The notes below the pieces were generated by a model, which saw nothing but the letters and a program-made list of their open reading frames with translations, did not search any database and was not told the DNA's origin. Below are positions 6,153-22,739 of a stretch of DNA of 64,000 nt, one piece after another; the first letter of the stretch is position 1, and each line of letters begins with the position of its first letter. Source of the DNA: Ruminococcus sp. (GTDB lineage: Bacteria > Bacillota > Clostridia > Oscillospirales > Ruminococcaceae); the NCBI GenBank assembly GCA_021200415.1, contig JAJQGO010000011.1:1-64000 (forward strand). The letters run 5' to 3'. Both the position numbers and the translations under genes were made by a program.

Positions 6153-6193
6153 TTGTTTATTTCTTGACAAACCCCACATAAATGTTGTAAAAT
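6153..6193 (+). promoter_or_regulatory. Rex operator overlapping the aconitase promoter
   Basis: TTGTTTATTTCTTGACAA (6153-6170) matches 12 of the 14 fixed bases of the Rex site TTGTTAA-N4-TTAACAA. Its right half contains the -35 TTGACA (6164-6169). A TAAAAT -10 (6188-6193) follows after 18 nt. Rex is encoded at the end of this same operon, so the site predicts NADH/NAD-sensitive autoregulation. Binding is inferred from the consensus known in Firmicutes. Confidence 0.7.
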
Positions 6194-8163: not shown

Positions 8164-8171
8164 GACAGTTT

Positions 8172-8228
8172 TAAGGCAGCACCGCACATATTTATATTTT
8201 ATATCAATCCCTGTGCGGTATTGTCTTA
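8172..8228. repeat. Interspersed palindromic repeat, copy B
   Basis: Arms TTAAGGCAGCACCGCACA and TGTGCGGTATTGTCTTA flank an AT-rich middle. It lies in the transcribed gap between acn and icd, so the mRNA will carry a hairpin there. Confidence 0.75.
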
Positions 8229-8291
8229 TACTAAGCGGAATTTCAGGAATATCCGGAATTCACGCGATATAAAATCTAAGGAGGAAAAACA

Positions 8292-9506
8292 ATGGCAAAG
8301 ATTCAGATGAAAACACCGTTGGTTGAAATGGACGGAGATGAAATGACCAGAATTCTCTGGAAGTGGATTAAGGAGATTCTCCTTGAACCATACGTTGATC
8401 TTAATACTGAGTATTATGACCTCGGACTCGAGTACAGAGAGAAAACTAAGGATCAGGTAACATGGGATTCTGCGGAGGCTACAAAGAAGTACGGTGTCGC
8501 TGTAAAATGCGCAACAATTACTCCTAACGCAGCAAGAATGCCTGAATACAATCTTACACAGATGTGGAAATCTCCCAACGGCACAATCAGAGCTGCCCTT
8601 GACGGAACAGTTTTCCGTACTCCGATTATTGTAAAAGGCATCGAGCCGTATATACCCACATGGACAAAGCCTATTACAATTGCCCGTCATGCGTATGGCG
8701 ATGTTTACAAAAATACAGAAATGCGCGTTCCGCAGGGAAGTAAGGCTGAGCTTGTCGTAACCGATAAGGACGGAAACGAATCAAGAGAGCTTATTCATGA
8801 TTTTGCAAAAAGCGACGGCGTAATTCAGGGACTTCACAATCTCGACAGCAGCATTGCAGGCTTCGCAAGAGCTTGTCTTAATTATGGACTTGATCTGAAG
8901 CAGGATGTATGGTTTGCAACCAAGGATACAATTTCCAAGAAGTATGACCACCGCTTTAAGGATATTTTCCAGGAAATATATGATAATGAATACAAGGAAA
9001 GATACGAGGCAGCAGGAATTGAATATTTCTACACTCTTATCGACGACGCTGTAGCAAGAGTTATACGTTCAAACGGCGGCTATATCTGGGCTTGCAAGAA
9101 TTATGACGGCGACGTTATGTCCGACATGGTTTCAACTGCATACGGCAGCCTTGCAATGATGACATCTGTTCTTGTTTCTCCTGACGGCATTTACGAATAT
9201 GAGGCAGCTCACGGAACAGTTCAGAGACATTATTACAAGTATCTGAAGGGCGAGGAAACCTCGACAAACTCCGTAGCTACGATATTCGCATGGAGCGGTG
9301 CGCTCCGCAAGAGAGGCGAACTTGACAAAACTCCCGAGCTTTGCGAATTTGCGGATAAGCTTGAAAAGGCAACAATTCAGACAATCGAGGAGGGCGTAAT
9401 GACGGGCGATCTCTACCTCATTTCCAAGCTTGAAAACAAGGTAAAGGTTGACTCAAAAACATTCCTTGAGGAAATCAACAAAAGACTTGCTGAATTGGTG
9501 AAATAA
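8292..9506 (+). CDS. icd: NADP-dependent isocitrate dehydrogenase (homodimeric, eukaryote-like class)
   Basis: Oxidative decarboxylation of isocitrate to 2-oxoglutarate with NADP+. The 404-aa protein belongs to the type II dimeric IDH class also found in eukaryotes: [15 protein letters not shown] at the start, [27 protein letters not shown] (substrate-binding Ser, Asn and Arg), the metal-binding [10 protein letters not shown] region, and [12 protein letters not shown] near 310. AAGGAGG precedes the ATG. It follows acn after a repeat-bearing gap and precedes rex by 40 bp. With acn it gives the right arm of an incomplete TCA pathway; no citrate synthase or 2-oxoglutarate dehydrogenase is in view. 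Confidence 0.95.
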
Positions 9507-9546
9507 GTTTTATTATTGACGTTATATAAAGAAAGGCATAAAGAAA

Positions 9547-10191
9547 ATGTCAAAAAAAGCAATATCAAAATCCGTAATACGGCGTATGCCGAGATATTAC
9601 AGATTTTTAGGTGAACTTGAACAGCAGGGGTGCATAAGGATTTCTTCAAGGGAGCTTTCGGAAAAAATGGGGCTGACAGCATCGCAGATACGTCAGGATC
9701 TCAATTGCTTCGGGGGCTTTGGGCAGCAGGGCTATGGCTATAACGTCAAGGCTCTGCACGAGGAAATAGGCAGCATACTTGGCGTAAATAAGGAAAATCC
9801 AACGATATTGCTTGGTGCGGGAAATCTTGGAAAAGCAATTGCGACTCACATTGATTTTCACAAGAGAGGGTTTAATCTTATAGGAATATTTGATATAAAT
9901 CCTGAGCTTTCCGGCAAGATTATAGGTACTCTTGAGGTGCAGAATACGGCGGATCTGGAGAGCTTCTGCATGGAACACAATCCGGTCACAGCCGTACTTT
10001 GCATACCGAAGGCTTCGGCGGCGGACGCTGCAAATCGTTTGGTTTCCTATGGAATCAAGGCGTTCTGGAATTTCAGCCATTACGACCTCAGAATTGACCA
10101 TAAAAACGTGATAGTTGAAAATGTGCATCTCGGCGACAGTCTGCTCACATTGTCATACGGACTTAATTCCATTGACGATACAGAGGATTAA
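9547..10191 (+). CDS. rex: Redox-sensing transcriptional repressor Rex
   Basis: A 214-aa Rex protein that represses fermentation and redox genes when NAD+ is high and leaves DNA when NADH binds. The N-terminal winged helix (about 1-80) contains SRELSEKMGLTASQIRQDLNCFGGFGQQGYGY. The C-terminal Rossmann domain starts with ILLGAGNLGKAIA (about 88-100). The C-terminal helix for domain swapping is present. It is the last gene of acn-icd-rex, closed by a terminator at 10192, and a Rex-type operator sits on the operon promoter. It lies directly upstream of the fumarase/Hdr/Flx operon, whose promoter region shows only a weak off-spaced candidate. Confidence 0.95.
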   Translation: MSKKAISKSVIRRMPRYYRFLGELEQQGCIRISSRELSEKMGLTASQIRQDLNCFGGFGQQGYGYNVKALHEEIGSILGVNKENPTILLGAGNLGKAIATHIDFHKRGFNLIGIFDINPELSGKIIGTLEVQNTADLESFCMEHNPVTAVLCIPKASAADAANRLVSYGIKAFWNFSHYDLRIDHKNVIVENVHLGDSLLTLSYGLNSIDDTED

Positions 10192-10219
10192 AACAAGGCG
10201 AAAACTGCCTTGTTTTTTC
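10192..10219 (+). terminator. Terminator of the acn-icd-rex operon
   Basis: AACAAGGC (10192-10199) and GCCTTGTT (10207-10214) form a perfect 8-bp stem directly after the rex stop, followed by a T run. Confidence 0.88.
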
Positions 10220-10518
10220 TTGAAAGCGTATGTGAAAAAAATGTCAAACACTTTACTCAGTATATATTGTTTGGAATAATCACATTCTGAATTTATATCA
10301 GATTTCAAGCTTTGCCGTTAACCTCATGCAACATTTTGCAGGGAAAACGGACGTACAAATCTTGAATTGCAAAAATCATTGAACTTGAATTAAACCGTGA
10401 TTTTTCCTATAGATCCCTGTTTTTCGGCAATTTGCTGACTAACAGGCATCCGTTTGCACGATGTAAAATCCTTGTTATTTTATATCAATATGAGAATACC
10501 AATATGCACAATGAGAAT
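10220..10518. other. Non-coding gap upstream of fumC
   Basis: This AT-rich stretch holds no credible coding frame. A loose dyad TTGTTA (10472-10477) ... TATCAA (10483-10488) resembles a Rex site, but its spacing is one base short. I see no riboswitch or RNA gene that I can name. The length suggests a regulatory region for the large operon downstream. Confidence 0.4.
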
Positions 10519-10547
10519 TTGCAATTTTTTTGGTTTACTGGTATACT
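10519..10547 (+). promoter_or_regulatory. Candidate promoter of the fumC-hdr-flx-frd operon
   Basis: TTGCAA (10519-10524) and TATACT (10542-10547) are spaced by 17 nt, leaving a leader of about 95 nt before fumC. A second TATAAT overlaps at 10548-10553 but has no matching -35. Confidence 0.5.
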
Positions 10548-10646
10548 TATAATTATAAATATAGTAATGTCGGAAATTGCGTTATCAGACGGTTTTTTGT
10601 CCCTTCGCATCCGATGTTAAAAACAGTTTTAGGAGAGGATATTGAA

Positions 10647-12023
10647 ATGGAATATCGTATCGAACATGACTCAATGGGCGAGGTAAAGGTTCCTGCCGAT
10701 AAGTATTGGGCTGCCCAGACAGAGCGCAGCCATGAGAATTTCCCTATAGGCGTCGGAATTGAAACCATGCCCAGAGAAATCACTCATGCATTCGGAATTC
10801 TTAAAAAGGCTGCTGCTACCGCAAATCATTCCATCAAGCCGGAGAAAATGACCGACGAAAAGTTCAGCGCAATTTCTCAGGCGTGCGATGAGGTTATCAG
10901 CGGCTCTCTTAACGAGCATTTCCCGCTTGTTGTATGGCAGACAGGCAGCGGTACGCAGTCGAACATGAATGCTAATGAGGTTATCGCCAACCGCGGAAAT
11001 GAAATTGCAGGAGCTAAGCTTCTTCATCCAAACGATGATGTCAACATGAGCCAGTCCTCAAACGACACCTTCCCGACAGCTATGCATATTGCTGCCGTTA
11101 TCGCAATCGAGGATAAGGTAATTCCTGCTATTGATACTCTTACCGCAACCTTCAGACGCCTTGAGGAGGAAAATGAGGGAATCGTCAAGAGCGGCAGAAC
11201 TCATCTTCAGGACGCAACTCCCATCAAGTTTTCTCAGGAGATAAGCGGCTGGCGTTCATCACTTGAAAAGGACAGAAAAATGCTTCTTGCTTCATGCGAC
11301 GAGCTTAAGGAGCTTGCACTTGGCGGAACTGCCGTAGGAACAGGTCTTAACGCTCCCGCAGGATTTGCTGAAAAGGCTGCCGAGGCAATCAGCGAAATCA
11401 CAGGTAAAAAATTCGTGACTGCTCCCAATAAATTCCATGCCCTCACTTCAAAGGACGAGATCGTGTATGCCCACGGAGCTTTGAAGGCTCTGGCTGCCGA
11501 TATGATGAAGATTGCCAATGACGTTCGCTGGCTGGCTTCCGGTCCGCGTGACGGTCTTGGTGAAATATTTATTCCGGAAAATGAACCCGGTTCGTCAATT
11601 ATGCCGGGAAAGGTCAATCCGACTCAGTGCGAGTCCGTTACCATGGTAGCCGTACAGGTTATGGGCAACGACGTTGCTGTAGGAATGGCTGCTTCTCAGG
11701 GTAATTTCGAACTCAATGTTTTCATGCCGGTATGCGCATATAATTTCCTTCAGTCAGCAAGACTCCTTGCTGAGTCAATCACCTCCTTCAACAAGAATTG
11801 TGCTGTGGGAATCAAGGCAAACAAGGAAAAAATGCACCACAATCTCTATAATTCTCTTATGCTCGTTACGGCTCTTAACCCGTACATTGGTTATGAAAAT
11901 GCCGCTAAAACAGCTAAGAAGGCTTATAAGGACAATATCTCGCTTAAAGAGGCCTGCGTAGAGCTTGGCTTCCTTACTGCCGAGAGGTTCGACGAGGTTT
12001 TCCACCCCGAAGAAATGGCATAA
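10647..12023 (+). CDS. fumC: Fumarate hydratase, class II
   Basis: Iron-independent fumarase (malate to fumarate plus water), 458 aa. The signature GSSIMPGKVNPTQCE (about 315-330) carries the catalytic Ser loop. SGRTHLQDATP and GSGTQSNMNANEVIANR are also present. The open frame runs upstream to 10530, but AGGAGAGG at 10631-10638 fits the ATG at 10647. It is the first gene of an 11-gene operon; hdrB starts 24 bp after its stop. Its position next to frdA/frdB-like genes suggests that it feeds fumarate to them. Confidence 0.95.
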   Translation: MEYRIEHDSMGEVKVPADKYWAAQTERSHENFPIGVGIETMPREITHAFGILKKAAATANHSIKPEKMTDEKFSAISQACDEVISGSLNEHFPLVVWQTGSGTQSNMNANEVIANRGNEIAGAKLLHPNDDVNMSQSSNDTFPTAMHIAAVIAIEDKVIPAIDTLTATFRRLEEENEGIVKSGRTHLQDATPIKFSQEISGWRSSLEKDRKMLLASCDELKELALGGTAVGTGLNAPAGFAEKAAEAISEITGKKFVTAPNKFHALTSKDEIVYAHGALKALAADMMKIANDVRWLASGPRDGLGEIFIPENEPGSSIMPGKVNPTQCESVTMVAVQVMGNDVAVGMAASQGNFELNVFMPVCAYNFLQSARLLAESITSFNKNCAVGIKANKEKMHHNLYNSLMLVTALNPYIGYENAAKTAKKAYKDNISLKEACVELGFLTAERFDEVFHPEEMA

Positions 12024-12047
12024 ATAATTCAGAAAGGAAAACGTGCT

Positions 12048-12842
12048 ATGACTTTCAGTTACTATCCGGGCTGTACGCTCAAAACAAAGGCTAAGGTTCT
12101 TGACAAATACGCAAGAGCTTCTGCCGAGGCACTTGGCATTACTCTTGAAGAACCGGCTGACTGGCAGTGCTGCGGAGGAGCTTATACAACCTCCGCCGAT
12201 GAAATCGCAACAAAGCTTTCAGCCGTAAGAACCCTCAACAGCGCCAAAGAGCTTGGCAGGGATCTTATCACAGTCTGTTCCGCCTGCCACAACGTAATCA
12301 AGCAGACCAACTATGACATCTCAAACAATGAGGACATGGCTATGAAGGTGAATAATTACCTCAAGCTTGACGAGCCTTATAACGGTGAAACCAAGGTTTA
12401 CCATTACCTCGAAATGCTCCGCGATGTCGTTGGCTTCGACACTCTCAGAGAGAAGGTTGTTAATCCTCTCAAGGGAAAGAAAATTGCCGCATATTACGGC
12501 TGCCTTCTCCTCAGACCCAGCAAGGCTCTCGCAATGGACGATCCGGAAAATCCAACAATTATGGAGGATTTCATCAGAGCTTTAGGCGCTGAACCTGTAA
12601 TCTATTCCCAGAGAAACGAATGCTGCGGCGGTTACATCACTATGGAGGACAAGGCGCAGGCTTCAAAGAGAAGCAATGCCGTTATGGATTCCGCAAAGGA
12701 CAAGGGAGCAGATATGGTTATCACAGCCTGTCCGCTTTGTATGTACAATCTTAAAACAAATTCAGACGTTGATCTGCCGGTGGTTTATTTTACTGAGCTT
12801 CTCGCTGAGGCTCTCGGCGTCAAGGAACAGGAGGAAGCGTGA
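12048..12842 (+). CDS. hdrB: Heterodisulfide reductase-type subunit B (HdrB)
   Basis: A 264-aa protein with two CCG domains, each the ligand set for the non-cubane [4Fe-4S] clusters of HdrB. The first is formed by YYPGC (about 5-9), QCCGG and CSAC. The second is formed by YYGC, ECCGG (about 190-194) and CPLC. In methanogens HdrB reduces CoM-S-S-CoB. In bacteria without those cofactors the acceptor is unknown and may be another disulfide or a partner protein. It overlaps hdrC by one base (TGATG) in the fumarase/Flx/Frd operon. Confidence 0.92.
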   Translation: MTFSYYPGCTLKTKAKVLDKYARASAEALGITLEEPADWQCCGGAYTTSADEIATKLSAVRTLNSAKELGRDLITVCSACHNVIKQTNYDISNNEDMAMKVNNYLKLDEPYNGETKVYHYLEMLRDVVGFDTLREKVVNPLKGKKIAAYYGCLLLRPSKALAMDDPENPTIMEDFIRALGAEPVIYSQRNECCGGYITMEDKAQASKRSNAVMDSAKDKGADMVITACPLCMYNLKTNSDVDLPVVYFTELLAEALGVKEQEEA

Positions 12843-13225
12843 TGGATAATAAATTAAAAGAACAGGTTCTCCGTTCAAGTCAGGTAAACGTTCTGAAATG
12901 TATGCGATGCGGCAAATGCTCAGGTACCTGCCCTTCCTACGACGAAATGGAATATCATCCCCATCAGTTCGTATACATGGTTGAGAAAGGCGATATTGAA
13001 AAGCTTATGAATTCAAAGTCGATTTATAAGTGCCTGACCTGCTTTGCCTGCGTTGACAGATGCCCGAGAGATGTTCAGCCTGCAAAAATCGTAGAGGCTG
13101 TACGTCTGGCTGCTATTCGCCAGCAGGGCAATAATCACCTTATACCTGATCAGATTCCGTCAATGCTCGACGAGGAGCTTCCTCAGCAGGCAATTGTTAC
13201 GGCATTCAGAAAATATACTAAGTAA
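12842..13225 (+). CDS. hdrC: Heterodisulfide reductase-type subunit C (HdrC)
   Basis: A 127-aa electron-transfer protein with two [4Fe-4S] binding motifs: CMRCGKCSGTCP (about 20-31) and CLTCFACVDRCP (about 64-75). In the Hdr complex it relays electrons from HdrA to HdrB. A GTG at 12839 is in frame, but the ATG at 12842 is better placed relative to AGGAGG and overlaps the hdrB stop. It is 12 bp from hdrA. Confidence 0.92.
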   Translation: MDNKLKEQVLRSSQVNVLKCMRCGKCSGTCPSYDEMEYHPHQFVYMVEKGDIEKLMNSKSIYKCLTCFACVDRCPRDVQPAKIVEAVRLAAIRQQGNNHLIPDQIPSMLDEELPQQAIVTAFRKYTK

Positions 13226-13237
13226 GGAGGAGAAAAG

Positions 13238-15229
13238 ATGCAGAGAATAGGAGTATTTGTCTGTCACTGCGGTACTAATATTGCTGCTACGGTTGACGTC
13301 AAGGCTGTTGCCGAGGCACTGCAGCATGAACCGGGAGTAGTTATCTCTAAGGAATATCAGTATATGTGTTCTGAGGCAGGTCAGAATCTCGTTAAGGATG
13401 CTATCAAGGAATATAATCTTTCCGGCATTGTAATTTGCTCATGCTCACCGAGAATGCATGAAAATACATTCAGAAAGGCAGCTGCTTCAGTTGGTCTTAA
13501 CCCATATCTTGTAGAAGTGGCTAACATAAGAGAGCAATGCTCTTGGATACATAAGGACATGGAGGAGGCTACCGAGAAGGCTATAATCCTCGGAAGAGCG
13601 GCTATTGCCAAGGTTCACCTCAACGCTCCGCTTACGGCAGGTGAAAGCCCTGTTGCCAAGAGAGCGCTTGTCATCGGCGGCGGTATTGCCGGTATCCAGA
13701 CAGCACTTGACATTGCCGATGCTGGATTCGATGTTGATATAGTTGAAAAAGAACCGACAATCGGCGGTAAGATGACACAGATTGATAAAACCTTCCCGAC
13801 TCTCGACTGCGCAGCTTGTATTCTTACACCAAAAATGGTTGAATGCTCACAGAATGAGAAAATTCACATCCACTCATACAGCGAGGTCAGCGATGTAAAG
13901 GGATTTGTCGGTAACTTCACCGTTACAATCAAGAAAAAGGCTCGTTTTGTTGACGAAACAAAATGTACCGGCTGCGGTCTTTGTACCGAAAAATGTCCCC
14001 AGAAGAAGGTTCCGAATCTCTTCAATCTGGGACTTGACTACAGAAGAGCAATTTATATTCCCTTCGCTCAGGCAGTTCCGAAGGTTGCTACAATTGATGC
14101 CGATTACTGTAATATGCTCAAGAACGGCAAGTGCGGCGTCTGTGCAAAGGTTTGCTCGGCAGGTGCTATTAACTACGAGCAGAAGGACGAATATATCGAG
14201 CAGAAGTATGGCGCAATCATAGTTGCTACAGGTTACAATCCCATTAAGCTTGACAAGTATGATGAGTTCGCTTACTCCCAGTGTCCCGATGTTGTTACAT
14301 CTCTTGAGCTTGAAAGACTCATGAACGCTGCCGGCCCTAATGGCGGTACGCTTCTCAGACCGTCCGATAAATCTCACCCTCACACAATTGTTTTCGTACA
14401 GTGCGTAGGTTCAAGATGCGACGACAGCAAGGGTAAGCCCTACTGCTCAAAGATTTGCTGTATGTACACAGCTAAGCACGCTATGCTTATCCGTGAGAAA
14501 TATCCTGATACAGACGTTTATGTATTCTACATTGATGTAAGAACTCCCGGAAAGAATTTCGATGAATTCTACCGCAGAGCTGTTGAGCAGTACGGCGTTC
14601 ATTATATCAAGGGCATGGTCGGCAAGGTAACGCCGAAATCTGACGGAAAGATTGACGTTCAGGCATCCGACCTTCTTTCAAATGAGCAGCTTCACATTGA
14701 CGCTGATATGGTAGTTCTCGCAACGGCAATCGAGCCTGATAAGACTGCCCGTCCGCTGGCAACAATGCTTACGGCAAGCATGGATACAAACGATTTCTTC
14801 ACTGAGGCTCACGCTAAGCTTCGTCCTGTTGAAAGCCCGACAGCCGGCATTTTCCTTTCGGGAGCCTGCCAAGGCCCTAAGGATATTCCGGAAACGGTTG
14901 CTCAGGCTGGAGCTGCGGCTTCAAAGGCAATCGGACTTCTCTGTAAGGACAGCATTACCTGCAATCCCTGCGTTGCCCATTCAGATGAACTCATGTGCAA
15001 CGGCTGTTCGTCCTGCGAAAAGGTATGTCCCTACGGTGCAATCACTTATCTTGATAAGGAATTCAGAATGCCCGACAGAACCACAAAAATCCGCCGCGTG
15101 GCAAGTGTTAATCCTGCCGTATGTCAGGGCTGCGGAGCTTGTACGGTTGCTTGTCCGTCAGGCGCAATGGATCTGAACGGATTCTCAAATAGTCAAATTA
15201 TGGCGGAGGTAGACGCGATATGCAAGTAA
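13238..15229 (+). CDS. hdrA: Heterodisulfide reductase-type subunit A (HdrA), flavoprotein
   Basis: A 663-aa HdrA, the bifurcating flavin subunit of Hdr complexes. It has an N-terminal Cys region (VCHCGTNIAA), a FAD Rossmann motif VIGGGIAGIQTALDIADAG (about 147-165), and a HdrA-specific Cys cluster region around LDCAACILTPKMVEC. A ferredoxin insertion contains CTGCGLCTEKCP and CGVCAKVC. Two C-terminal [4Fe-4S] motifs follow, CNGCSSCEKVCPYG and CQGCGACTVACPSG. Length is that of single HdrA proteins. It overlaps flxD by 10 bp, so the two products are probably made and assembled together. Confidence 0.94.
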   Translation: MQRIGVFVCHCGTNIAATVDVKAVAEALQHEPGVVISKEYQYMCSEAGQNLVKDAIKEYNLSGIVICSCSPRMHENTFRKAAASVGLNPYLVEVANIREQCSWIHKDMEEATEKAIILGRAAIAKVHLNAPLTAGESPVAKRALVIGGGIAGIQTALDIADAGFDVDIVEKEPTIGGKMTQIDKTFPTLDCAACILTPKMVECSQNEKIHIHSYSEVSDVKGFVGNFTVTIKKKARFVDETKCTGCGLCTEKCPQKKVPNLFNLGLDYRRAIYIPFAQAVPKVATIDADYCNMLKNGKCGVCAKVCSAGAINYEQKDEYIEQKYGAIIVATGYNPIKLDKYDEFAYSQCPDVVTSLELERLMNAAGPNGGTLLRPSDKSHPHTIVFVQCVGSRCDDSKGKPYCSKICCMYTAKHAMLIREKYPDTDVYVFYIDVRTPGKNFDEFYRRAVEQYGVHYIKGMVGKVTPKSDGKIDVQASDLLSNEQLHIDADMVVLATAIEPDKTARPLATMLTASMDTNDFFTEAHAKLRPVESPTAGIFLSGACQGPKDIPETVAQAGAAASKAIGLLCKDSITCNPCVAHSDELMCNGCSSCEKVCPYGAITYLDKEFRMPDRTTKIRRVASVNPAVCQGCGACTVACPSGAMDLNGFSNSQIMAEVDAICK

Positions 15230-15666
15230 ACGAAAATAAAGATTTTGAACCTGTAATTGTTGCCTTCTGCTGCAACTGGTGTTCGTATGCAGGTGCGGAC
15301 CTTTCCGGTACAAATCGTCTTAATTATCCTGCAAATGTTAAAATTATAAGAGTTCCCTGTTCATGCCGTGTAAATCCCATGTTCATTCTCAGAGCCTTCC
15401 AGAAGGGTGCAGACGGCGTAATTCTCTGCGGATGTCACCCCGGCGACTGCCACTATACATCAGGCAACTACTATGCGCGCCGCCGTATGACGCTTCTCTT
15501 CAGTATGCTTGATTTCCTCGGCATTGAGAGAGATCGTACAAGAGTTGAATGGGTTTCGGCTGCCGAGGGCGCTAAGTTTGCGGCTACAATGAATGAATTT
15601 GTTGAATCCGTTAAGAAGCTTGGCAAAAACAGGAGATTGGAGGATCTGAGATGCAGAAAGCAATAA
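15220..15666 (+). CDS. flxD: MvhD/FlxD-type iron-sulfur electron-transfer protein
   Basis: A 148-aa MvhD-like protein, the small [2Fe-2S] subunit that joins an electron donor module to HdrA in methanogens (MvhD) and bacteria (FlxD). Conserved cysteines lie in CCNWCSYAGAD, VPCSCRVNP and CGCHPGDCHYTSGN. GGAGGT precedes the ATG inside the hdrA end. Its place between hdrA and flxC fits the HdrABC-FlxABCD arrangement described in sulfate reducers and other anaerobes. The C-terminal 20 residues overlap the start of flxC. Confidence 0.9.
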   Translation: MQVNENKDFEPVIVAFCCNWCSYAGADLSGTNRLNYPANVKIIRVPCSCRVNPMFILRAFQKGADGVILCGCHPGDCHYTSGNYYARRRMTLLFSMLDFLGIERDRTRVEWVSAAEGAKFAATMNEFVESVKKLGKNRRLEDLRCRKQ

Positions 15667-16622
15667 TTGAAAAAGCAAAGCTGCTTCTTGCCGACGGTAC
15701 AGTAAACCGTGTAATCGGCTGGAAGAAGGGAGACTTTGCCTACGATTCCACACCTGCTGTATTCAATAGTGCCGAAGAGCTTGATAAGGATTTTGTTTAT
15801 GATGACTTCACAGCTGCAAACGTTTCAAAATACCTTATAAAGGAGTCGCAGAAGGAGGGCAGGGTTCTCGTATTTTTAAAGCCCTGCGATACATACAGCT
15901 TTAATCAGCTCATCAAGGAGCATCGCATTAACAGGGACAATGTTTACATCGTCGGAATTGAATGCGGCGGCAAGCTTGATATTGAAAAAATTAAGGCAAA
16001 GGGTATTTCCGGCATTCAGAGCATTACAAATAATGACGGCACACTCACAATTGAAACTCTCTACGGAACAGAATCTGTTTCCGCTGATGATGCAATGGCT
16101 GAAAGATGCCTCACCTGCAAAAGCAAAAAGCACGTTGTATACGACGAGCTTATGGGCGAGGACGGCGATGTTCTTGATTCAAACAGATTCGACCAGGTAG
16201 CTGAGCTTGAAAATATGACCGCAGAGGAGCGTTATGAATTCTGGAGAAGTCAGCTTTCAAAGTGTATTCGCTGCAACGCCTGCCGCAACGTGTGTCCGGC
16301 TTGCTCATGTGAAAACTGCGTGTTCGACAATCCGAATTCCGGCATTGCAAATAAAGCTCCGGCTGACAGCTTCGAGGAAAATATGTTCCATATCATAAGA
16401 GCCTTCCACGTTGCAGGAAGATGTACCGACTGCGGAGAATGCTCAAGAGTCTGTCCTCAGAACATTCCGCTTCACCTCCTCAACCGCAAGTTCATCAAGG
16501 ATATAAACGAGCTTTACGGTGAATATCAGGCAGGTGCGGATACTGAATCAAGAGCGCCTCTTACAAATTATACTCAGAATGACTGCGAACCCTCTGTAGT
16601 ACATGAAAGGGGTGTGGAATAA
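15651..16622 (+). CDS. flxC: FlxC-like iron-sulfur protein (FrhB-like N-terminus, two ferredoxin motifs)
   Basis: A 323-aa protein. The N-terminal half (about 1-180) resembles the FrhB/FpoF-like fold, with VFLKPCDTYSF, GIECGGKLD and ERCLTC segments. The C-terminal half carries ferredoxin motifs CIRCNACRNVCPACSCENC (about 205-223) and CTDCGECSRVCPQN (about 265-278). In Flx complexes FlxC and FlxB wire the NADH-oxidising FlxA to FlxD/HdrA. GGAGG lies 7 nt before the ATG, and the gene overlaps flxD by 16 bp. The C/B letter assignment rests on order and domain content. Confidence 0.8.
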   Translation: MQKAIIEKAKLLLADGTVNRVIGWKKGDFAYDSTPAVFNSAEELDKDFVYDDFTAANVSKYLIKESQKEGRVLVFLKPCDTYSFNQLIKEHRINRDNVYIVGIECGGKLDIEKIKAKGISGIQSITNNDGTLTIETLYGTESVSADDAMAERCLTCKSKKHVVYDELMGEDGDVLDSNRFDQVAELENMTAEERYEFWRSQLSKCIRCNACRNVCPACSCENCVFDNPNSGIANKAPADSFEENMFHIIRAFHVAGRCTDCGECSRVCPQNIPLHLLNRKFIKDINELYGEYQAGADTESRAPLTNYTQNDCEPSVVHERGVE

Positions 16623-16623
16623 G

Positions 16624-17643
16624 ATGTTGATGATGAGCATGGAAAAAATCGACGATTTATTCGCTCTTATTGCCGAAAAACAGGCACTTTATATTCCTGC
16701 CGACAACAAGGACGGCGCAGCTGAATATACAAGATGGAGCGAGGGAGTCAGGTACAGCAGCGCACTCAATACACTTCGCAGCGCAAAGGATTTCTTCTTC
16801 CCACAGACTGAAAATCTCGTTGATTTTAAAATGAACGGTAAAAATATTGAAATTATCGATACCCGCAAGGAGGCTGAGGATTTTGTAATTTTCGGTGTTC
16901 GTGCTTGTGACGCTAAAAGCTTTACTATTCTCGATAATGTATATTTGTCCGAACCTGTTGACACATATTACAAAACACGCCGCGAGCATGGTACAGTTGT
17001 TACTATGGCTTGCACCAAGCCTGCCGAAACCTGCTTCTGCGGAACCTTCGGGATTGACGCAACTCAGCCCGGCGGTGATGTAGAGTGCGCAAGCGACGGT
17101 AAAAACATTTTCTTTGAAGCTAAAACCGAAAAGGGAAAGGCTTTTGTTGAATCAATCTCTTCTCTCCTCAGCGAGGGCGATACCTCCGAGGTTGAAAAGG
17201 TTAAGGAAAACACAAAGGAAATCCTTGCAAAGCTTCCTCTCGCAAATCTTACAACAGATGCCTTTGGCGGAGATAAGCTCAAGGAATACTTCGATTCCGA
17301 TAAATGGGCAGGACTTTCCGAAAGCTGTCTTGGATGCGGAACGTGTACATTCGTCTGCCCGACCTGTCAGTGCTACGATATAAAGGAATTTGATACGGGT
17401 CACGGCATTAAGCGTTATCGCTGCTGGGATTCATGTATGTATTCCGATTTCACGAAGATGGCACACGGAAATCCAAGACTTACTCAGCTTGAAAGATTCC
17501 GTCAGCGTTTCATGCATAAGCTTGTGTACTATCCGGCTAACTACGACGGCGAATTCAGCTGCGTGGGCTGCGGAAGATGTCTTTCGAAGTGCCCTATATC
17601 AATGAATATCGTCAAGGTTATGAAAGCATTGGAGGTTAAGTAA
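16624..17643 (+). CDS. flxB: FlxB-like iron-sulfur protein (AsrA-like dicluster)
   Basis: About 339 aa. The N-terminal part resembles the A subunit of anaerobic sulfite reductase and hydrogenase-linked dicluster proteins (FGVRACDAKSFTILDNVYL, CTKPAETCFCGTFG). Two [4Fe-4S] motifs are at the C-terminal side: CLGCGTCTFVCPTCQC and CVGCGRCLSKCPIS. An in-frame ATG at 16603 lies inside flxC, but AAAGGGG around 16606-16611 better serves the ATG at 16624. It should pass electrons between FlxA and FlxC. Its stop overlaps the flxA start (TAATG). Confidence 0.8.
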   Translation: MLMMSMEKIDDLFALIAEKQALYIPADNKDGAAEYTRWSEGVRYSSALNTLRSAKDFFFPQTENLVDFKMNGKNIEIIDTRKEAEDFVIFGVRACDAKSFTILDNVYLSEPVDTYYKTRREHGTVVTMACTKPAETCFCGTFGIDATQPGGDVECASDGKNIFFEAKTEKGKAFVESISSLLSEGDTSEVEKVKENTKEILAKLPLANLTTDAFGGDKLKEYFDSDKWAGLSESCLGCGTCTFVCPTCQCYDIKEFDTGHGIKRYRCWDSCMYSDFTKMAHGNPRLTQLERFRQRFMHKLVYYPANYDGEFSCVGCGRCLSKCPISMNIVKVMKALEVK

Positions 17644-18470
17644 TGAACAACGATACATTAATACCGCATCTTGGCGTAGTAACCGATATTCGTATTGATA
17701 CGCCCGATGTTAAAACATTCAGAGTTGAAGCTCCGGAGGGCGGCAAGGTATTTGAGCATATGCCCGGTCAGTGCGCTATGCTTTCAATCCCCGGAGTAGG
17801 CGAGGGTATGTTCTCAATTACATCATCTCCTACAAAGAAGGAGTATATGGAATTCAGCATTAAGAAATGCGGCTGTTTGACATCATGGCTTCATATGATG
17901 GAACCGGGTCAGCAAATCACAATAAGAGGACCATACGGAAAGCCTTTCCCCGTTGATACTGAGCTTAAGGGCAAGGATCTGCTCTTTGTTGCCGGCGGTA
18001 TCGGTCTTGCTCCTCTTCATTCCGTAATCAATTACGTCCGCGACAAGCGCGAGAACTACGGCAATATTCAGGTTGTCTACGGTTCACGTTCAATGGAGGA
18101 TCTCGTTGACTACAAGGAGATTCTTGAAGAATGGATGGCAGATCCGAGCATTGAGGTTAACCTGACTATTGACCGTGAGCAGCCCGAATGGGACGGCCAC
18201 GTTGGATTTGTTCCGAATTATGTTAAGGAGCTTAATCCCTCGCTGAACAAGACTGTTCTCATCTGCGGCCCGCCGATTATGATTAAGTTCACGCTTGCAG
18301 GTCTGAAGGAATTAGGTTTTCAGGAAACTCAGGTTTACACAACAATGGAGCTTCGCATGAAGTGCGGAGTCGGAAAATGCGGACGCTGCAATATCGGCGA
18401 TAAATATGTCTGCAAGCATGGACCTGTTTTCCGTTTTGACGAGCTCAGTGAGCTTCCGAATGAATATTAA
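17643..18470 (+). CDS. flxA: FlxA-like NAD(P)H-oxidising flavoprotein (AsrB family)
   Basis: A 275-aa ferredoxin-NADP reductase-type protein related to the B subunit of anaerobic sulfite reductase. A FAD-binding barrel comes first (PGQCAMLSIPGVGEGMFSITSSP). A NAD-binding domain follows (LLFVAGGIGLAPLHSVINYV, VYGSRSMEDLVDYKEI, LICGPPIMIKFT). A C-terminal [2Fe-2S] loop has Cys in KCGVGKCGRCNIGDKYVC. This is the entry point for NADH into the Flx-Hdr complex. The next gene, the frdB-like subunit, starts 14 bp later. Confidence 0.88.
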   Translation: MNNDTLIPHLGVVTDIRIDTPDVKTFRVEAPEGGKVFEHMPGQCAMLSIPGVGEGMFSITSSPTKKEYMEFSIKKCGCLTSWLHMMEPGQQITIRGPYGKPFPVDTELKGKDLLFVAGGIGLAPLHSVINYVRDKRENYGNIQVVYGSRSMEDLVDYKEILEEWMADPSIEVNLTIDREQPEWDGHVGFVPNYVKELNPSLNKTVLICGPPIMIKFTLAGLKELGFQETQVYTTMELRMKCGVGKCGRCNIGDKYVCKHGPVFRFDELSELPNEY

Positions 18471-18484
18471 AAAGGAGCGTTATC

Positions 18485-19159
18485 ATGGAAAAGATGATCA
18501 ATATTTACCTGTTCGGCAAAAAGTATGAAGTGCCGGCTGGTCTTACAATTATGAATGCTATGGAATATGCCGGCTATCAGCTTCTCAGAGGCTGCGGCTG
18601 CCGTAACGGATTCTGCGGAGCCTGCGCTACGATTTACAGAATCAAGGATAAGCAGGAGCTTCATGCCTGTCTTGCTTGTCAGACTGAGGTTGAAGAGGGT
18701 ATGTACGTTGCAACTCTGCCTTTCTTCCCGCTTGTTAAACAGATTTATAACATTGAGGAAATCAAGCCTACCGAGCAGATCATGATGCAGCTTTACCCTG
18801 AAATCTACAGCTGTATCGGCTGCAATGCCTGCACAAAGGCTTGTACTCAGGAGCTGAGCGTAATGCAGTACATAGCTCACGCTCAGAGAGGCGAGTATGA
18901 AAAGTGCGCAGAGCTTTCATTTGACTGCGTAATGTGCGGAGTATGTTCATCACGCTGTCCTGCCGGAATTTCTCATCCACAGGTTGCAATGCTCGCAAGA
19001 CGTCTTAACGGCAAGTATATTGCTCCGGAATGCGGACATCTTGCTGACAGAGTTAACGAAATCAATGACGGTGCTTTTACATCTCTCATTGAGGATCTTA
19101 TGCAGAAGCCTGTTGAGGAGCTTAAAGAGCTTTACAACACCCGTGAAATTGAGAAATAA
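18485..19159 (+). CDS. Fumarate reductase-type iron-sulfur subunit (soluble FrdB/TfrB-like)
   Basis: A 224-aa protein with an N-terminal [2Fe-2S] domain (GCGCRNGFCGAC at about 37-48, then CLAC). Two motifs with four Cys each follow, CIGCNACTKAC (about 111-121) and CVMCGVCSSRCP (about 149-160), so two [4Fe-4S] clusters are predicted. Canonical FrdB/SdhB has one [3Fe-4S] next to the quinone site; that site is not evident. The CCG domain fused to TfrB in methanogens is absent, but a separate HdrB is encoded in this operon. No membrane anchor subunit follows. It is probably the electron relay from the Hdr/Flx complex to the flavin subunit encoded 14 bp downstream. Confidence 0.85.
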   Translation: MEKMINIYLFGKKYEVPAGLTIMNAMEYAGYQLLRGCGCRNGFCGACATIYRIKDKQELHACLACQTEVEEGMYVATLPFFPLVKQIYNIEEIKPTEQIMMQLYPEIYSCIGCNACTKACTQELSVMQYIAHAQRGEYEKCAELSFDCVMCGVCSSRCPAGISHPQVAMLARRLNGKYIAPECGHLADRVNEINDGAFTSLIEDLMQKPVEELKELYNTREIEK

Positions 19160-19173
19160 GGGAGGGTTATACA

Positions 19174-20775
19174 ATGTATAAAATTGATAAATATAACGAG
19201 CTTGCTAAAATTGTTGCCGAGAAAAGACCGGCAAATGCAGCTCTCGAGCCAAGAAGAATGACAGCTGAGGAGAAGGATACACTTCTTGAAACCTTCCATC
19301 CGGACTACAAGAAGGGCGAATTCACAGTCCTTACTGCCGGACAGAATAAGGGCGAAAAGGTACCTACACAGCTTGCCGATCTTCTTCAGGGACACAGCAG
19401 AATCAGCGCGGACGATGTTGATCTTTCAAACCCCGATTATGACACTGACGTACTCATTATCGGCGGCGGCGGCGCAGGCTCTTCGGCAGCAATTGAAGCT
19501 GATGAAGCAGGCGTAAAGGCAATGATCGTCACAAAGCTTCGTATAGGCGACGCAAACACAATGATGGCTGAGGGCGGAATTCAGGCTGCCGACAAGCCTA
19601 ACGATTCACCGGCTGTTCACTATCTTGACGCTTTCGGCGGCGGACATTTCGCAGCTAAGCCTGAGCTTCTGGAGAAGCTCGTTACAAAGGCTCCCGAGGC
19701 AATTCAGTGGCTCAATAATCTGGGCGTTGAGTTCGATAAAGAAGCAGACGGCACAATGATTACAACTCACGGCGGCGGTACTTCAAGAAAGAGAATGCAC
19801 GCTGCTAAGGATTATTCCGGCGCTGAAATTATGAGAACTCTCCGTGATGAGGTTCTCAACAGAGGAATCCCCGTTGTTGACTTCACAGCAGCAATTGAGA
19901 TTATTCTCGATAAGGACGGCAAGGCTGCAGGCGCAGTTCTCATGAACATGGAAACAAAGCAGCTTCTTGTTGCAAGAGCTAAAACAGTTGTCATTGCAAC
20001 AGGCGGCGCAGGACGTCTTCACTATCAGGGCTTCCCGACATCAAACCACTACGGCGCAACAGCTGACGGTCTTGTTCTCGGATACCGTGTAGGCGCTAAG
20101 CTCCTTTACGCAGATACACTTCAGTACCACCCGACAGGCGCTGCTTATCCTGAGCAGATTTTCGGTGCGCTTGTTACCGAAAAGGTTCGTTCGCTTGGCG
20201 CAAAGCTCATCAACATTGACGGCGAGGCTTTCATGCATCCTCTTGAAACACGTGATGTTACAGCTGCTTCGATTATCCGTGAATGCTCCGAGAGAGGCAA
20301 GGGTATCGAAACTGAACAGGGAGTCGGCGTATGGCTTGATACTCCAATGATCGAATACAAAAACGGCGAGGGCACAATTGAAAAGAGAATCCCCGCAATG
20401 ATGAGAATGTTCGGCAAGTACGGCATTGACATCCGCAAGGAACCGATTCTTGTTTATCCTACACTTCACTACCAGAACGGCGGTCTTGATATTACACCTG
20501 ACGGTATGACAGGAGTTGAGAATCTTTTCGCAGCCGGAGAGGTTGTCGGCGGAATTCACGGAAGAAACAGACTCATGGGAAATTCACTTCTCGATGTAAT
20601 CGTATTCGGCAGAAACGCAGGTATCCATGCTGCTGCTAAGGCTAAGGAAACTGCTCAGCCGCAGGGTCTGACACTCGAACATATTAAAAAGTTTGACGCT
20701 GAGCTTAACGAAGCAGGCATAGAAACTGACACGGTTTCACCTAAGCTTCTTCCGAATTATGCGAGAAAAGCATAA
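19174..20775 (+). CDS. Fumarate reductase/succinate dehydrogenase-type flavoprotein subunit (soluble)
   Basis: A 533-aa flavoprotein. After an unusual N-terminal extension of about 92 residues comes the FAD motif VLIIGGGGAGSSAAIEADEAG. LRIGDANTMMAEGGIQAA, HGGGTSRKRMHAA and LQYHPTGAAYPEQIFG follow, then ETRDVTAASIIREC and HGRNRLMGNSLLD. These carry the FAD-binding and substrate His/Arg positions of the FrdA/SdhA family. The protein stops about 55 residues after the FAD domain, so the three-helix C-terminal domain of canonical FrdA is missing. With the upstream iron-sulfur subunit and fumarase in the same operon, fumarate reduction to succinate is the likely role. It is predicted cytosolic, with no signal or membrane segment. 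Confidence 0.87.
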   Translation: MYKIDKYNELAKIVAEKRPANAALEPRRMTAEEKDTLLETFHPDYKKGEFTVLTAGQNKGEKVPTQLADLLQGHSRISADDVDLSNPDYDTDVLIIGGGGAGSSAAIEADEAGVKAMIVTKLRIGDANTMMAEGGIQAADKPNDSPAVHYLDAFGGGHFAAKPELLEKLVTKAPEAIQWLNNLGVEFDKEADGTMITTHGGGTSRKRMHAAKDYSGAEIMRTLRDEVLNRGIPVVDFTAAIEIILDKDGKAAGAVLMNMETKQLLVARAKTVVIATGGAGRLHYQGFPTSNHYGATADGLVLGYRVGAKLLYADTLQYHPTGAAYPEQIFGALVTEKVRSLGAKLINIDGEAFMHPLETRDVTAASIIRECSERGKGIETEQGVGVWLDTPMIEYKNGEGTIEKRIPAMMRMFGKYGIDIRKEPILVYPTLHYQNGGLDITPDGMTGVENLFAAGEVVGGIHGRNRLMGNSLLDVIVFGRNAGIHAAAKAKETAQPQGLTLEHIKKFDAELNEAGIETDTVSPKLLPNYARKA

Positions 20776-20828
20776 TAAACTGTAAAAAATCAGCAATCTT
20801 TATTTAGAAAGTTCGAGGTAATTCACAG

Positions 20829-22070
20829 ATGAATTTAATTACAACCGGTAATTTTTCTATCTCAATTCAGTCAATCACATTTCTTATGTTTACTGTTTTT
20901 GCTATAGCAGCAGTGGGATACGCACTTGGCAGAATAAAAATCAAGGGCGTTTCACTCGGAACAGCAGGCGTGTTCATTGTAGCTCTCCTTTACGGATGCT
21001 TCTTCTACGAAAATCTTGAAAGCGGCTTGACGGTCGGCTCAGGAGATGCAGCAGTTTCCTACGTTACGGACGCATTGAAAATCGTTGAGAATATGGGACT
21101 CGTATTCTTCGTAACTGCCGTTGGCTTCATTGCAGGACCGAGCTTCTTTGGAAATCTCAAGAAAAACTTTAAATCATACGTGCTTCTTGCACTTGTAATT
21201 ATCGTAATGGGCGGACTTGCCTGTGCCGGATGCATTTTCGTTGATTCCAAAATATCTGATCGTCCTCTTGAGGAAATCACAGCAATGCTCGTTGGACTTC
21301 TTTCAGGCTCACTCACAAGTACACCTGCATTTTCAGCGGCAAAATCGACGGTGGCAAATGCAGATCTCGAGGCAATGGTAACTGTCGGACATGGTATCGC
21401 TTATCTTTTCGGCGTAATCGGAGTTGTTCTCTTTGTACAGCTCATTCCGAAATTCTTAAAGGTCGATATGGCTAAGGAGAGGGAGCAGCTGATTTCAGCC
21501 GATTCAAGCAATTCCAAAAAGGCGTATAAGGGCAAGCTCATTGAAATGGACGACTTTGGTTTCATGCCGTTTGCACTTGCCGCAATTTTAGGTATATTTG
21601 TCGGCGTAATCAAGATTGGCAATTTCTCACTTACCACAACCGGAGGCTGCCTCCTTGTTTCTCTGATTTTCGGTCATTTCGGACACATCGGACCGGTTTC
21701 GGTTTCCCCGAAGGAGAGTACCCTCAAGGTGTTCAGAGAGCTTGGACTTATGCTGTTCCTTATCGGTGCAGGTGTTGCCGGCGGCGCAAGCTTCGTCAAA
21801 TATTTTGAAGCAGTTTACTTCATCTACGGAATCATTATGACTCTCGTACCGATGATTGTAGGCTTCCTGTTTGCGAAGTACGTGCTGAAGCTGAGCATAC
21901 TTAACAATCTTGGTTCAATTACAGGCGGTATGACATCCACACCCGCCCTTGGAACTCTTATCAACACAGCCGGAACGGAAAATGTAGCATCTGCTTATGC
22001 TGCAACCTATCCTGTTGCGCTCATAGTTGTTGTAATTGTATCACAGGTTCTGATTTTAATATTCAGATAA
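20829..22070 (+). CDS. AspT/YidE/YbjL-family transporter, candidate succinate exporter
   Basis: A 413-aa membrane protein with about ten hydrophobic segments. It has the internal duplication typical of the AAEx family: GLLSGSLTSTPAFSAAK in the first half and GSITGGMTSTPALGTLI in the second. The hydrophilic loop between halves is short (about 60 residues), without the TrkA-C domains of AspT. Family members include the aspartate:alanine exchanger AspT and the succinate exporter SucE of Corynebacterium. As the last gene of the fumarase/Flx/Hdr/Frd operon, it could carry out succinate. The substrate is an inference from context. Confidence 0.78.
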   Translation: MNLITTGNFSISIQSITFLMFTVFAIAAVGYALGRIKIKGVSLGTAGVFIVALLYGCFFYENLESGLTVGSGDAAVSYVTDALKIVENMGLVFFVTAVGFIAGPSFFGNLKKNFKSYVLLALVIIVMGGLACAGCIFVDSKISDRPLEEITAMLVGLLSGSLTSTPAFSAAKSTVANADLEAMVTVGHGIAYLFGVIGVVLFVQLIPKFLKVDMAKEREQLISADSSNSKKAYKGKLIEMDDFGFMPFALAAILGIFVGVIKIGNFSLTTTGGCLLVSLIFGHFGHIGPVSVSPKESTLKVFRELGLMLFLIGAGVAGGASFVKYFEAVYFIYGIIMTLVPMIVGFLFAKYVLKLSILNNLGSITGGMTSTPALGTLINTAGTENVASAYAATYPVALIVVVIVSQVLILIFR

Positions 22071-22073
22071 TTC

Positions 22074-22143
22074 AAAAAAGCTGTGCATCGTTTGATGTGC
22101 AGCTTTTTTAGCTTAAAAGGCGGACTTCAAGTCCGCTTTTTCT
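22074..22143 (+). terminator. Two tandem terminators closing the 11-gene operon
   Basis: The first is a long hairpin around 22076-22109, with arms beginning AAAAAGCTG and ending CAGCTTTTT, loop GTTT. The second is GCGGAC (22120-22125) pairing with GTCCGC (22131-22136), followed by TTTTTCTG. Such doubling marks a firm end to the operon. Confidence 0.88.
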
Positions 22144-22319
22144 GTTATTGAATGTGTACAAATTGTGATAATGAATATGGTGCAATTCAACAAAAATGGG
22201 ATGAGAATTTTTAAAACAACTTTACTTTTTATTCATAATGTGGTAATATTGACTTGATATTATTTGGAAAATCCTGTGTACAGACCTAAAATTCATAGTG
22301 AACATCGAAATAAAAGCCC
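22144..22319. other. Non-coding AT-rich gap before the TrpR-like gene
   Basis: No credible coding frame or hairpin is seen. Only AT-rich sequence lies between the tandem terminators and the next promoter. Confidence 0.4.
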
Positions 22320-22348
22320 TTTACTTTTGCGTGTTATTGTGCTAAAAT
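22320..22348 (+). promoter_or_regulatory. Promoter of the TrpR-like gene
   Basis: TTTACT (22320-22325) and TAAAAT (22343-22348) are spaced by 17 nt, 46 nt before the ATG. Confidence 0.55.
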
Positions 22349-22394
22349 GTAAAGTGTGAAATTGAAACGCCCAATGGGCAGATTGGAGTTCGTT

Positions 22395-22694
22395 ATGATA
22401 GATAAGATTAAATCTGAAAACATGGATTTGCTGTTTGAAGCAATTCTTTCTCTTGATTCTGTAGATGAATGCTATAAATTTTTTGACGATTTATGCACAA
22501 GTATAGAGCTTAAAGCCTTTGCCCAGAGATTGCAGGTAGCAAAGCTCCTCGATGAACACAGAGTCTACAACAGCATTGTGACGGAAACAGGTGCAAGCAC
22601 TGCAACTATAAGCCGCGTCAACCGTTCCCTGAAGGATGGCAACGACGGATATAATATCGTTTTTCAGCGTCTGAAGGAAAAAAATTTGCTGTAA
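22395..22694 (+). CDS. TrpR-like (YerC/YecD-family) DNA-binding protein
   Basis: A small all-helical protein of 99 aa. The helix-turn-helix is in the YNSIVTETGASTATISRVNRSL segment (about 60-82). The family is related in fold to the tryptophan repressor. Regulatory targets of YerC-type proteins are poorly known. An in-frame GTG at 22356 exists; the ATG at 22395 has a TTGGAG site 6 nt upstream and matches the usual N-terminus. The cellulase gene follows after 45 bp on the same strand, so co-transcription or local control is possible. Confidence 0.85.
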   Translation: MIDKIKSENMDLLFEAILSLDSVDECYKFFDDLCTSIELKAFAQRLQVAKLLDEHRVYNSIVTETGASTATISRVNRSLKDGNDGYNIVFQRLKEKNLL

Positions 22695-22739
22695 TCGGCA
22701 AGTGATTTTTCCTTAATATATAATGAAAAGAGGTCAATC

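Follow-up and report, generated by a model that had tools for sequence, protein, structure and literature searches.

A candidate soluble, quinone-free NADH:fumarate reductase encoded by an hdrBCA-flxDCBA-frdBA operon in Ruminococcus

Organization of the operon

The first 64,000 nucleotides of contig JAJQGO010000011.1 from a Ruminococcus sp. draft genome (assembly GCA_021200415.1; 2.35 Mb, 99.5% complete; genome G000), which we refer to as the window and to which all coordinates refer unless a contig or locus is named, carry an operon in which fumarase, heterodisulfide reductase (Hdr), Flx, and fumarate reductase (Frd)-like genes are followed by a transporter gene (Table 1). The original prediction read these genes as a candidate cytosolic NADH:fumarate reductase in which an Flx-Hdr complex passes electrons to a soluble FrdAB pair. 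Its eleven genes on a single strand are confirmed by the open reading frame (ORF) list and family searches, and its estimate of gaps of at most about 55 bp with several overlaps agrees with the measured spacings, which from fumC to the AAEx gene are, in order, +24, -4, +12, -10, -16, -20, -1, +14, +14, and +53 bp (maximum, +53 bp; minimum, -20 bp). The pair of terminators that it placed at the end reduces to a single hairpin, the next plus-strand site not occurring until 22684. Seven weak plus-strand terminator-like sites lie inside operon genes and none between genes; both strands of the 8000-24500 interval together contain 22 such sites, versus 15.7 (standard deviation, 3.4) in shuffles. The mechanical ORF of fumC runs from a TTG at 10530, and we take the gene from the ATG at 10647, with the family match beginning at residue 3.

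The complete FlxABCD-HdrABC subunit set is present, with FlxA (FAD/NAD), FlxB (AsrA-like), FlxC (Fe-S), and FlxD (MvhD) alongside HdrA, HdrB, and HdrC; the models for the three Hdr subunits are matched clearly, yet below their methanogen equivalog cut-offs. For the AAEx transporter we infer succinate as the substrate, and it is probably an exporter or exchanger.

Table 1. Features of the operon and its immediate surroundings (window positions)
Feature	Position	Strand	Basis
rex, NADH-sensing repressor, upstream neighbour	9547..10191	+	NF003990 289.5 bits, cut-off 233
fumC, class II fumarate hydratase	10647..12023	+	TIGR00979 (fumC_II) 708 bits, cut-off 665
hdrB, two CCG domains, proposed electron bridge to FrdB	12048..12842	+	PF02754
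hdrC, two 4Fe-4S motifs	12839..13225	+	TIGR03290 71 bits (below cut-off of 160); Fer4_8
hdrA, FAD/Fe-S subunit, proposed bifurcating flavin	13238..15229	+	best match 5odc_A, 692 bits
flxD, MvhD-like (FlpD)	15220..15666	+	PF02662 190 bits
flxC, Fe-S subunit, two 4Fe-4S motifs	15651..16622	+	Fer4_8/Fer4_9
flxB, AsrA/sulfhydrogenase-beta-like Fe-S subunit	16603..17643	+	PF17179 105 bits; NF040829 170 bits
flxA, FAD/NAD-binding, proposed NADH entry	17643..18470	+	PF00175, PF00970, PF10418; AsrB- and HydG-like
frdB-like, Fer2 + Fer4, 224 aa	18485..19159	+	family searches, cysteine alignment
frdA-like flavoprotein, FAD_binding_2	19174..20775	+	PF00890 235 bits; TfrA is best NCBIfam model
AAEx-family transporter (Asp-Al_Ex)	20829..22070	+	PF06826 195 bits, two stretches; TIGR01625 over cut-off
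Intrinsic terminator-like hairpin, strong, 3' of operon	22115..22141	+	terminator scan

Subunit anatomy and the proposed electron path

Longer stretches were fetched for 40 loci of the same class (20 of the 26 matches in the order outside the window's own genome, and 20 of 52 further class matches), and the FrdA, FrdB, and HdrB alignments comprise the window proteins with those of 22 or 23 of these loci. FrdA is extended at its N terminus by about 88 residues; residues 88-491 align with E. coli SdhA (1nek), and 7d6v, 5kxj, 6lum, and 1chu were also aligned. Residues H319, T335/E336, R360, H432, and R466, which we take to be the catalytic residues of the fumarate site, have aligned counterparts in 1nek and show no variation in 23 sequences. 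The position of the histidine that carries covalent FAD is occupied by N128, an Asn in 23/23 sequences, and the complex II C-terminal flavoprotein domain is unmatched in the domain family search. FrdA scores 342.6 bits against the TfrA model (under its cut-off of 718), 278 bits against an Sdh/Frd subfamily model, and 266 bits against the NadB model.

The near-equal NadB and Sdh/Frd scores, together with the lack of the covalent-FAD histidine, could indicate that FrdA acts on another substrate, such as L-aspartate, or works mainly as a succinate dehydrogenase. We regard this as very unlikely, given that TfrA is the best model and that a second FrdA-like gene elsewhere in the genome (C5:43488-44660) is itself NadB (aspartate oxidase)-like, at 437-457 bits and slightly under the cut-offs. 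Further, fumC is the first gene of the operon, a fumarase gene (PF05681) lies upstream of frdBA in a locus from another class (L220), and Pseudoclostridium thermosuccinogenes is described as a succinate producer with such an operon, with more transcript at low CO2 (PMC7282089).

FrdB has invariant cysteines for a [2Fe-2S] cluster (C39, C44, C47, and C65) and two four-cysteine motifs (C110/113/116/120 and C148/151/154/158), all conserved in 24 sequences. No CCG domain is matched in FrdB in the family searches, HdrB being a separate chain. In HdrB, ten cysteines (C9, C41, C42, C77, C80, C152, C192, C193, C228, and C231) are invariant in 23 sequences, a pattern to be found wherever an HdrB carries two complete CCG motifs, and the protein matches HdrB of solved methanogen complexes (8rvv, 7bkb, and 5odc). 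The fused TfrB profile is matched by FrdB at 19-148 (36 bits), HdrC at 131-220 (29 bits), and HdrB at 264-487 (41 bits); all three matches are weak, and that of HdrC is generic, as FlxC matches the same stretch.

HdrB scores alike against CoB_CoM_SS_B (153.5 bits) and MFR_anch_SdhE, the SdhE of 8-methylmenaquinol:fumarate reductase (152.6 bits; cut-off, 500), both under cut-off, as might be expected if it were a true quinone-reactive SdhE-type subunit and FrdBA-HdrB a quinol:fumarate reductase merely cotranscribed with Flx-Hdr. We find this barely credible, as hdrC and hdrA adjoin hdrB, and the genome lacks UbiA-family prenyltransferases (PF01040; controls positive in 14/14 genomes; other quinone genes were not searched). 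The original prediction named a membrane anchor elsewhere in the genome as counterevidence, and there is none of the PF01127 or PF02300 families (controls positive in 7 and 1 genomes, respectively; PF02313 was not searched). A quinone route is thus unlikely.

We conclude that the operon probably encodes an NADH:fumarate reductase of the E type (SdhABE-like), soluble and independent of quinone, in which HdrB replaces SdhE and is fed by Flx-HdrA. The E-type cysteine patterns and the successive matches of FrdB, HdrC, and HdrB to the TfrB profile suggest a concrete route from NADH to fumarate. NADH would donate hydride to FlxA, and FlxB, FlxC, and FlxD would carry electrons to the HdrA flavin, at which bifurcation would direct one branch to ferredoxin at low potential and the other through HdrC to the CCG clusters of HdrB. 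From HdrB, electrons would pass to FrdB, through its 2Fe-2S and two 4Fe-4S clusters, then to the FrdA FAD and on to fumarate, with fumarate provided by FumC and succinate removed by the AAEx carrier. Reduced ferredoxin would be reoxidized by Rnf, yielding NADH with ion pumping, and Rnf and the complex together would achieve indirectly energy-conserving fumarate reduction with no quinone. Complex formation, HdrB-to-FrdB transfer, fumarate activity, bifurcation, and direction are what we infer from the genes.

The genome has a possible ferredoxin partner, in that neighbouring genes match the rnfC, D, E, A, and B models over cut-off; the ORF in the place of rnfG has no match at 1e-30. There is a second NQR2/RnfD/RnfE-family match of 128.6 bits apart from the Rnf cluster (L181, C12:25385-26209). 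A bifurcating hydrogenase was considered as another NADH sink and set aside, as the sole PF02906 [FeFe] hydrogenase match in the genome is of the monomeric group B1 type (L213, C61:84154-85605).

Taking potentials of -320 mV for NADH, +33 mV for fumarate, and -420 to -500 mV for ferredoxin, the reaction of 2 NADH with fumarate and ferredoxin is calculated to release ∼33 to 49 kJ per fumarate, and bifurcation is therefore affordable. Electron transfer from NADH to fumarate is also exergonic when uncoupled, and the cited passages on the Flx-Hdr complex show no bifurcation in vitro, so HdrA could be a plain conduit with all electrons going to fumarate. This seems to us distinctly improbable. The match of HdrA to its solved methanogen counterpart extends over the full length (residues 3-660); HdrA, FlxB, FlxC, and FlxD would presumably be superfluous in a simple NADH dehydrogenase, and Rnf is available for the ferredoxin. 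In a search of the genome with HdrA, the operon gene is the only full-length match, two further matches being of ∼20 bits and of Fe-S type.

Distribution of the operon and its upstream region

Within the order, FrdB is found at E values of 1e-20 or better in 27/147 genomes, and flxB-flxA-frdB-frdA are arranged together in 27/27 loci. Across the class, FrdB (E, 1e-10) is present in 55 of 391 genomes and HdrA (E, 1e-100) in 57, and 53 genomes have both. Only two have FrdB alone (G216, which is 75% complete, and G409, in which FrdB is a partial 42% match), and four have HdrA alone (G168, G178, G182, and G210). The co-occurrence has a Fisher P value of 4e-58, not corrected for shared ancestry.

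A contig scan with FrdB identified at least 460 relatives, of which the best 80 were kept as named loci. All nine genes are present in the order hdrBCA-flxDCBA-frdBA in 61 of these 80, and in the other 19 the first detected gene is 1 to 98 bp from the locus end; an AAEx gene follows frdA in 62 and fumC is present in 60. The closest FrdB proteins among the 80 are from Ruminococcus metagenome-assembled genomes (MAGs; up to 91%), with Ruminococcus flavefaciens FD-1 at 85% and ATCC 19208 at 83%. The order is also kept in 38/40 of the fetched loci, the exceptions being L043, at a contig end, and L080, in which frdBA precedes hdrBCA-flxDC. Recurrence of the nine-gene order in different families of this class goes beyond chance and favours a functional connection between FrdBA and Flx-Hdr there. 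Two MAG contigs under the name Treponema and one under Bacteroidaceae (L145, L171, and L161) also carry the operon, with FrdB identities of 79 to 82%, and these may reflect horizontal transfer or wrong binning.

Pairwise identities of the nine proteins were correlated across 28 of 31 complete loci, after removal of L036, L037, and L045 for broken gene calls. The coefficients range from 0.67 to 0.94, with HdrA-FrdB at 0.94 and HdrA-FrdA at 0.91, although high values are also expected from common descent alone.

The pattern differs in other classes of the phylum, where FrdB is found at 1e-25 in 38 genomes (39/398 including the window's own) and Hdr/Flx genes were sought by tblastn with the window proteins at 1e-6, near frdBA only. 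Among 29 short loci (∼1.5 kb on each side), 1 has flxBA, 5 have hdrC-hdrB, 10 have flxD with a remote flxC homologue, and 13 have no such gene; in two of the last group (genomes G524 and G612), hdrBCA-flxD was found further downstream. Seventeen longer loci, chosen across the ranking, include 5 with Hdr/Flx genes (L222, L225, L227, L229, and L230) and 12 without. In total, 18/36 examined genomes have Hdr/Flx genes near frdBA and 18/36 have none, and the proposition that FrdBA always accompanies Flx-Hdr was dropped. FrdBA thus has the look of a module that can draw on several electron inputs, its tight lock to Flx-Hdr being a trait of the window's class. The link drawn in the original prediction is thus partly upheld: gene order, co-occurrence (53 shared and 6 discordant of 391 genomes), and conserved residues favour a functional connection in the class, but the link is not general, given the loci of other classes with no Hdr/Flx gene near frdBA.

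These other loci are varied in composition. In some of those without Hdr/Flx genes (L220 and L228), there are genes for class I fumarase, malic enzyme, or an Fe-S protein that binds FMN. In L220 (9176-12777), the FMN-binding protein and another Fe-S protein precede frdBA and are a possible alternative electron input; L224 is alike by ORF layout. Six loci (L229, L191, L194, L196, L197, and L199) have hdrC-hdrB immediately 5' of frdBA, perhaps forming a soluble SdhABE-like unit; hdrA and flx genes are undetected in the 19 kb of L229 (from the same genome as L197), and the other five are covered for 2 to 4 kb only. In L230 (3928-14799), hdrC-hdrB-hdrA are followed by an ORF of 1058 aa in which HdrA-like flavin/Fe-S parts are repeated, and then by flxD, an ORF remotely like flxC, frdB, and frdA, apparently an enlarged-HdrA version.

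Several observations weigh against a dedicated FrdBA-Flx-Hdr enzyme, beginning with the 18 out-of-class genomes noted above. The HdrA limit of 1e-100 is strict and excludes more distant HdrA types, which may occur without Frd; G168 (L231), for example, has HdrA (47 to 48%), flxD, and hdrC homologues with no Frd in the 19.5 kb seen. The HdrB-FrdB correlation (0.67), across the proposed contact, is the lowest of 36 protein pairs, and Frd-Hdr/Flx gene fusions, sought as evidence of contact, number zero in 1197 adjacent pairs from 147 loci. In Riftia symbionts, the tfrAB expression pattern is reported to be unlike that of the hdr-flx cluster (PMC11636981). HdrB also retains the two CCG motifs in full, with every cysteine of the HdrB proteins that reduce disulfides.

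The last of these, with the HdrB-FrdB pair being the least correlated, would be compatible with a diffusible thiol:fumarate pathway and no single complex, in which Flx-HdrABC reduces a disulfide/thiol carrier or a protein dithiol that feeds FrdBA. There is a parallel in Desulfovibrio, in which Flx-Hdr is reported to interact with DsrC (PMC10504309). We nonetheless consider such a carrier unlikely. DsrC exceeds the PF04358 cut-off in 0/381 class genomes, the window's own included (E. coli control positive; other small carriers were not searched), with three subthreshold matches, one of them in a genome that has the operon (G320). Moreover, FrdB is unlike TfrB in having no CCG domain of its own for thiol electrons, and frdBA sits within the hdr-flx block in fixed order.

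A more specific and more tentative proposal is that HdrB came to serve as the E subunit in a soluble complex II, yielding a bifurcating NADH:fumarate/ferredoxin oxidoreductase of nine subunits that, with Rnf, would conserve energy from fumarate reduction without quinone in gut Clostridia including R. flavefaciens, and that FrdBA is a plug-in module joined to other electron inputs in other classes of the phylum; we think that this could well be so, but are close to evenly divided.

The product of the upstream rex gene is a possible regulator of the operon, not an enzyme part. Using what we presume to be the Rex consensus, sites with ≤3 mismatches are found 5' of fumC in 21/81 loci versus 66/1620 random windows, and a TTGTTAA-n4-ATATCAA-like element recurs upstream of fumC in 14/59 named loci. 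In the window, no Rex site with ≤3 mismatches is present upstream of fumC, for which reason Rex control is kept as a lead only; a one-base-shorter variant of the element is at 10472-10488. Aconitase- and isocitrate dehydrogenase-like ORFs, identified by eye, are also upstream of the operon, and a Rex-like site (6153-6170), with 2 mismatches to the presumed consensus, is ∼55 bp 5' of the aconitase-like ORF. A large secreted cellulase-like protein of GH9 type with a dockerin-like C-terminal part is encoded at 22740-25268, also by eye.

Comparison with known systems

Succinate formed by R. flavefaciens-type bacteria is an important rumen intermediate. If our interpretation is correct, NADH would drive fumarate and ferredoxin reduction together, the ATP yields of modelled rumen and gut fermentations would change, and the fumarate route and hydrogen formation would be competitors for NADH. 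Heterodisulfide reductase and complex II would also be directly bridged in evolution. The presence of the operon in R. flavefaciens FD-1 and ATCC 19208 offers cultured mesophilic hosts for testing.

The FlxABCD-HdrABC of Desulfovibrio vulgaris, reportedly an NADH dehydrogenase/heterodisulfide reductase in work by Ramos in 2015, has the same seven subunits as the window; its reported partner is DsrC (PMC10504309), whereas here DsrC is absent above cut-off and FrdBA is in the operon. Methanogen TfrAB is similar in that TfrA is the best NCBIfam model of FrdA and the TfrB profile is weakly matched by FrdB, HdrC, and HdrB. It differs in that the FrdA score falls well short of the TfrA cut-off, FrdB has no CCG part, and the donor proposed here is NADH, with HdrB as a separate protein.

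In E-type complex II, such as SdhABE and the Wolinella 8-methylmenaquinol:fumarate reductase, SdhB is described as having a second [4Fe-4S] cluster and SdhE as having an Hdr-related motif of ten cysteines (PMC2680327). The window shares the cysteines for the second B-subunit cluster; its HdrB has ten invariant cysteines as well, but so would other HdrB proteins with both CCG motifs complete, and it stays under the SdhE cut-off. The proposed HdrB-to-FrdB step has precedent, by analogy, in E-type SdhE and in TfrB. Here, however, HdrB is encoded within hdrBCA-flx, no quinone prenyltransferase was found, and FrdA has no covalent-FAD histidine. The classical quinol:fumarate reductases and succinate:quinone reductases (types A to D) differ, with the PF01127/PF02300 anchor absent here (PF02313 not searched) and N128 at the covalent FAD position.

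In tubeworm symbionts and Thioflavicoccus, tfrAB is reported to be interspersed with flx-hdr and kor genes, and Flx-Hdr of the symbionts is proposed to pass electrons directly to a fumarate reductase of the Tfr type (PMC6315080; PMC11636981). Those systems are associated with reductive tricarboxylic acid cycle carbon fixation and have korABCD between the hdr genes, unlike the window.

A close counterpart is the P. thermosuccinogenes "succinate operon" (CDQ83_RS03365 to RS03315), described in 2020 (PMC7282089), with ∼4-fold more transcript at low CO2, although not significantly for every subunit. Its listed gene order is that of the window, with fumarate hydratase first, then an Flx-Hdr block, a pair of tags for fumarate reductase, and a putative transporter of succinate; the likeness is by locus-tag list, not sequence, and the block has seven tags if these are counted by fives. 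The species is not among the best 80 of the at least 460 relatives in our contig scan. The window differs in its gut Ruminococcus-related host and in its ferredoxin partners, with Ech and Rnf reported for P. thermosuccinogenes and Rnf found here (Ech was not searched). The same report notes that coupling of fumarate reduction to ferredoxin through Flx-Hdr had been proposed earlier, citing a 2019 preprint (preprints201912.0288). The operon type and the ferredoxin-coupling idea are therefore already in print (2019 to 2020) and are not new; no assay or other biochemical test of such an enzyme was found in the open-licence literature. The present analysis adds that the FrdB and HdrA types co-occur almost perfectly within the class, that named gut bacteria, among them R. 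flavefaciens, keep the nine genes in a fixed order, and that HdrB and FrdB can be read as E-type subunits, together with the counterevidence from other classes.

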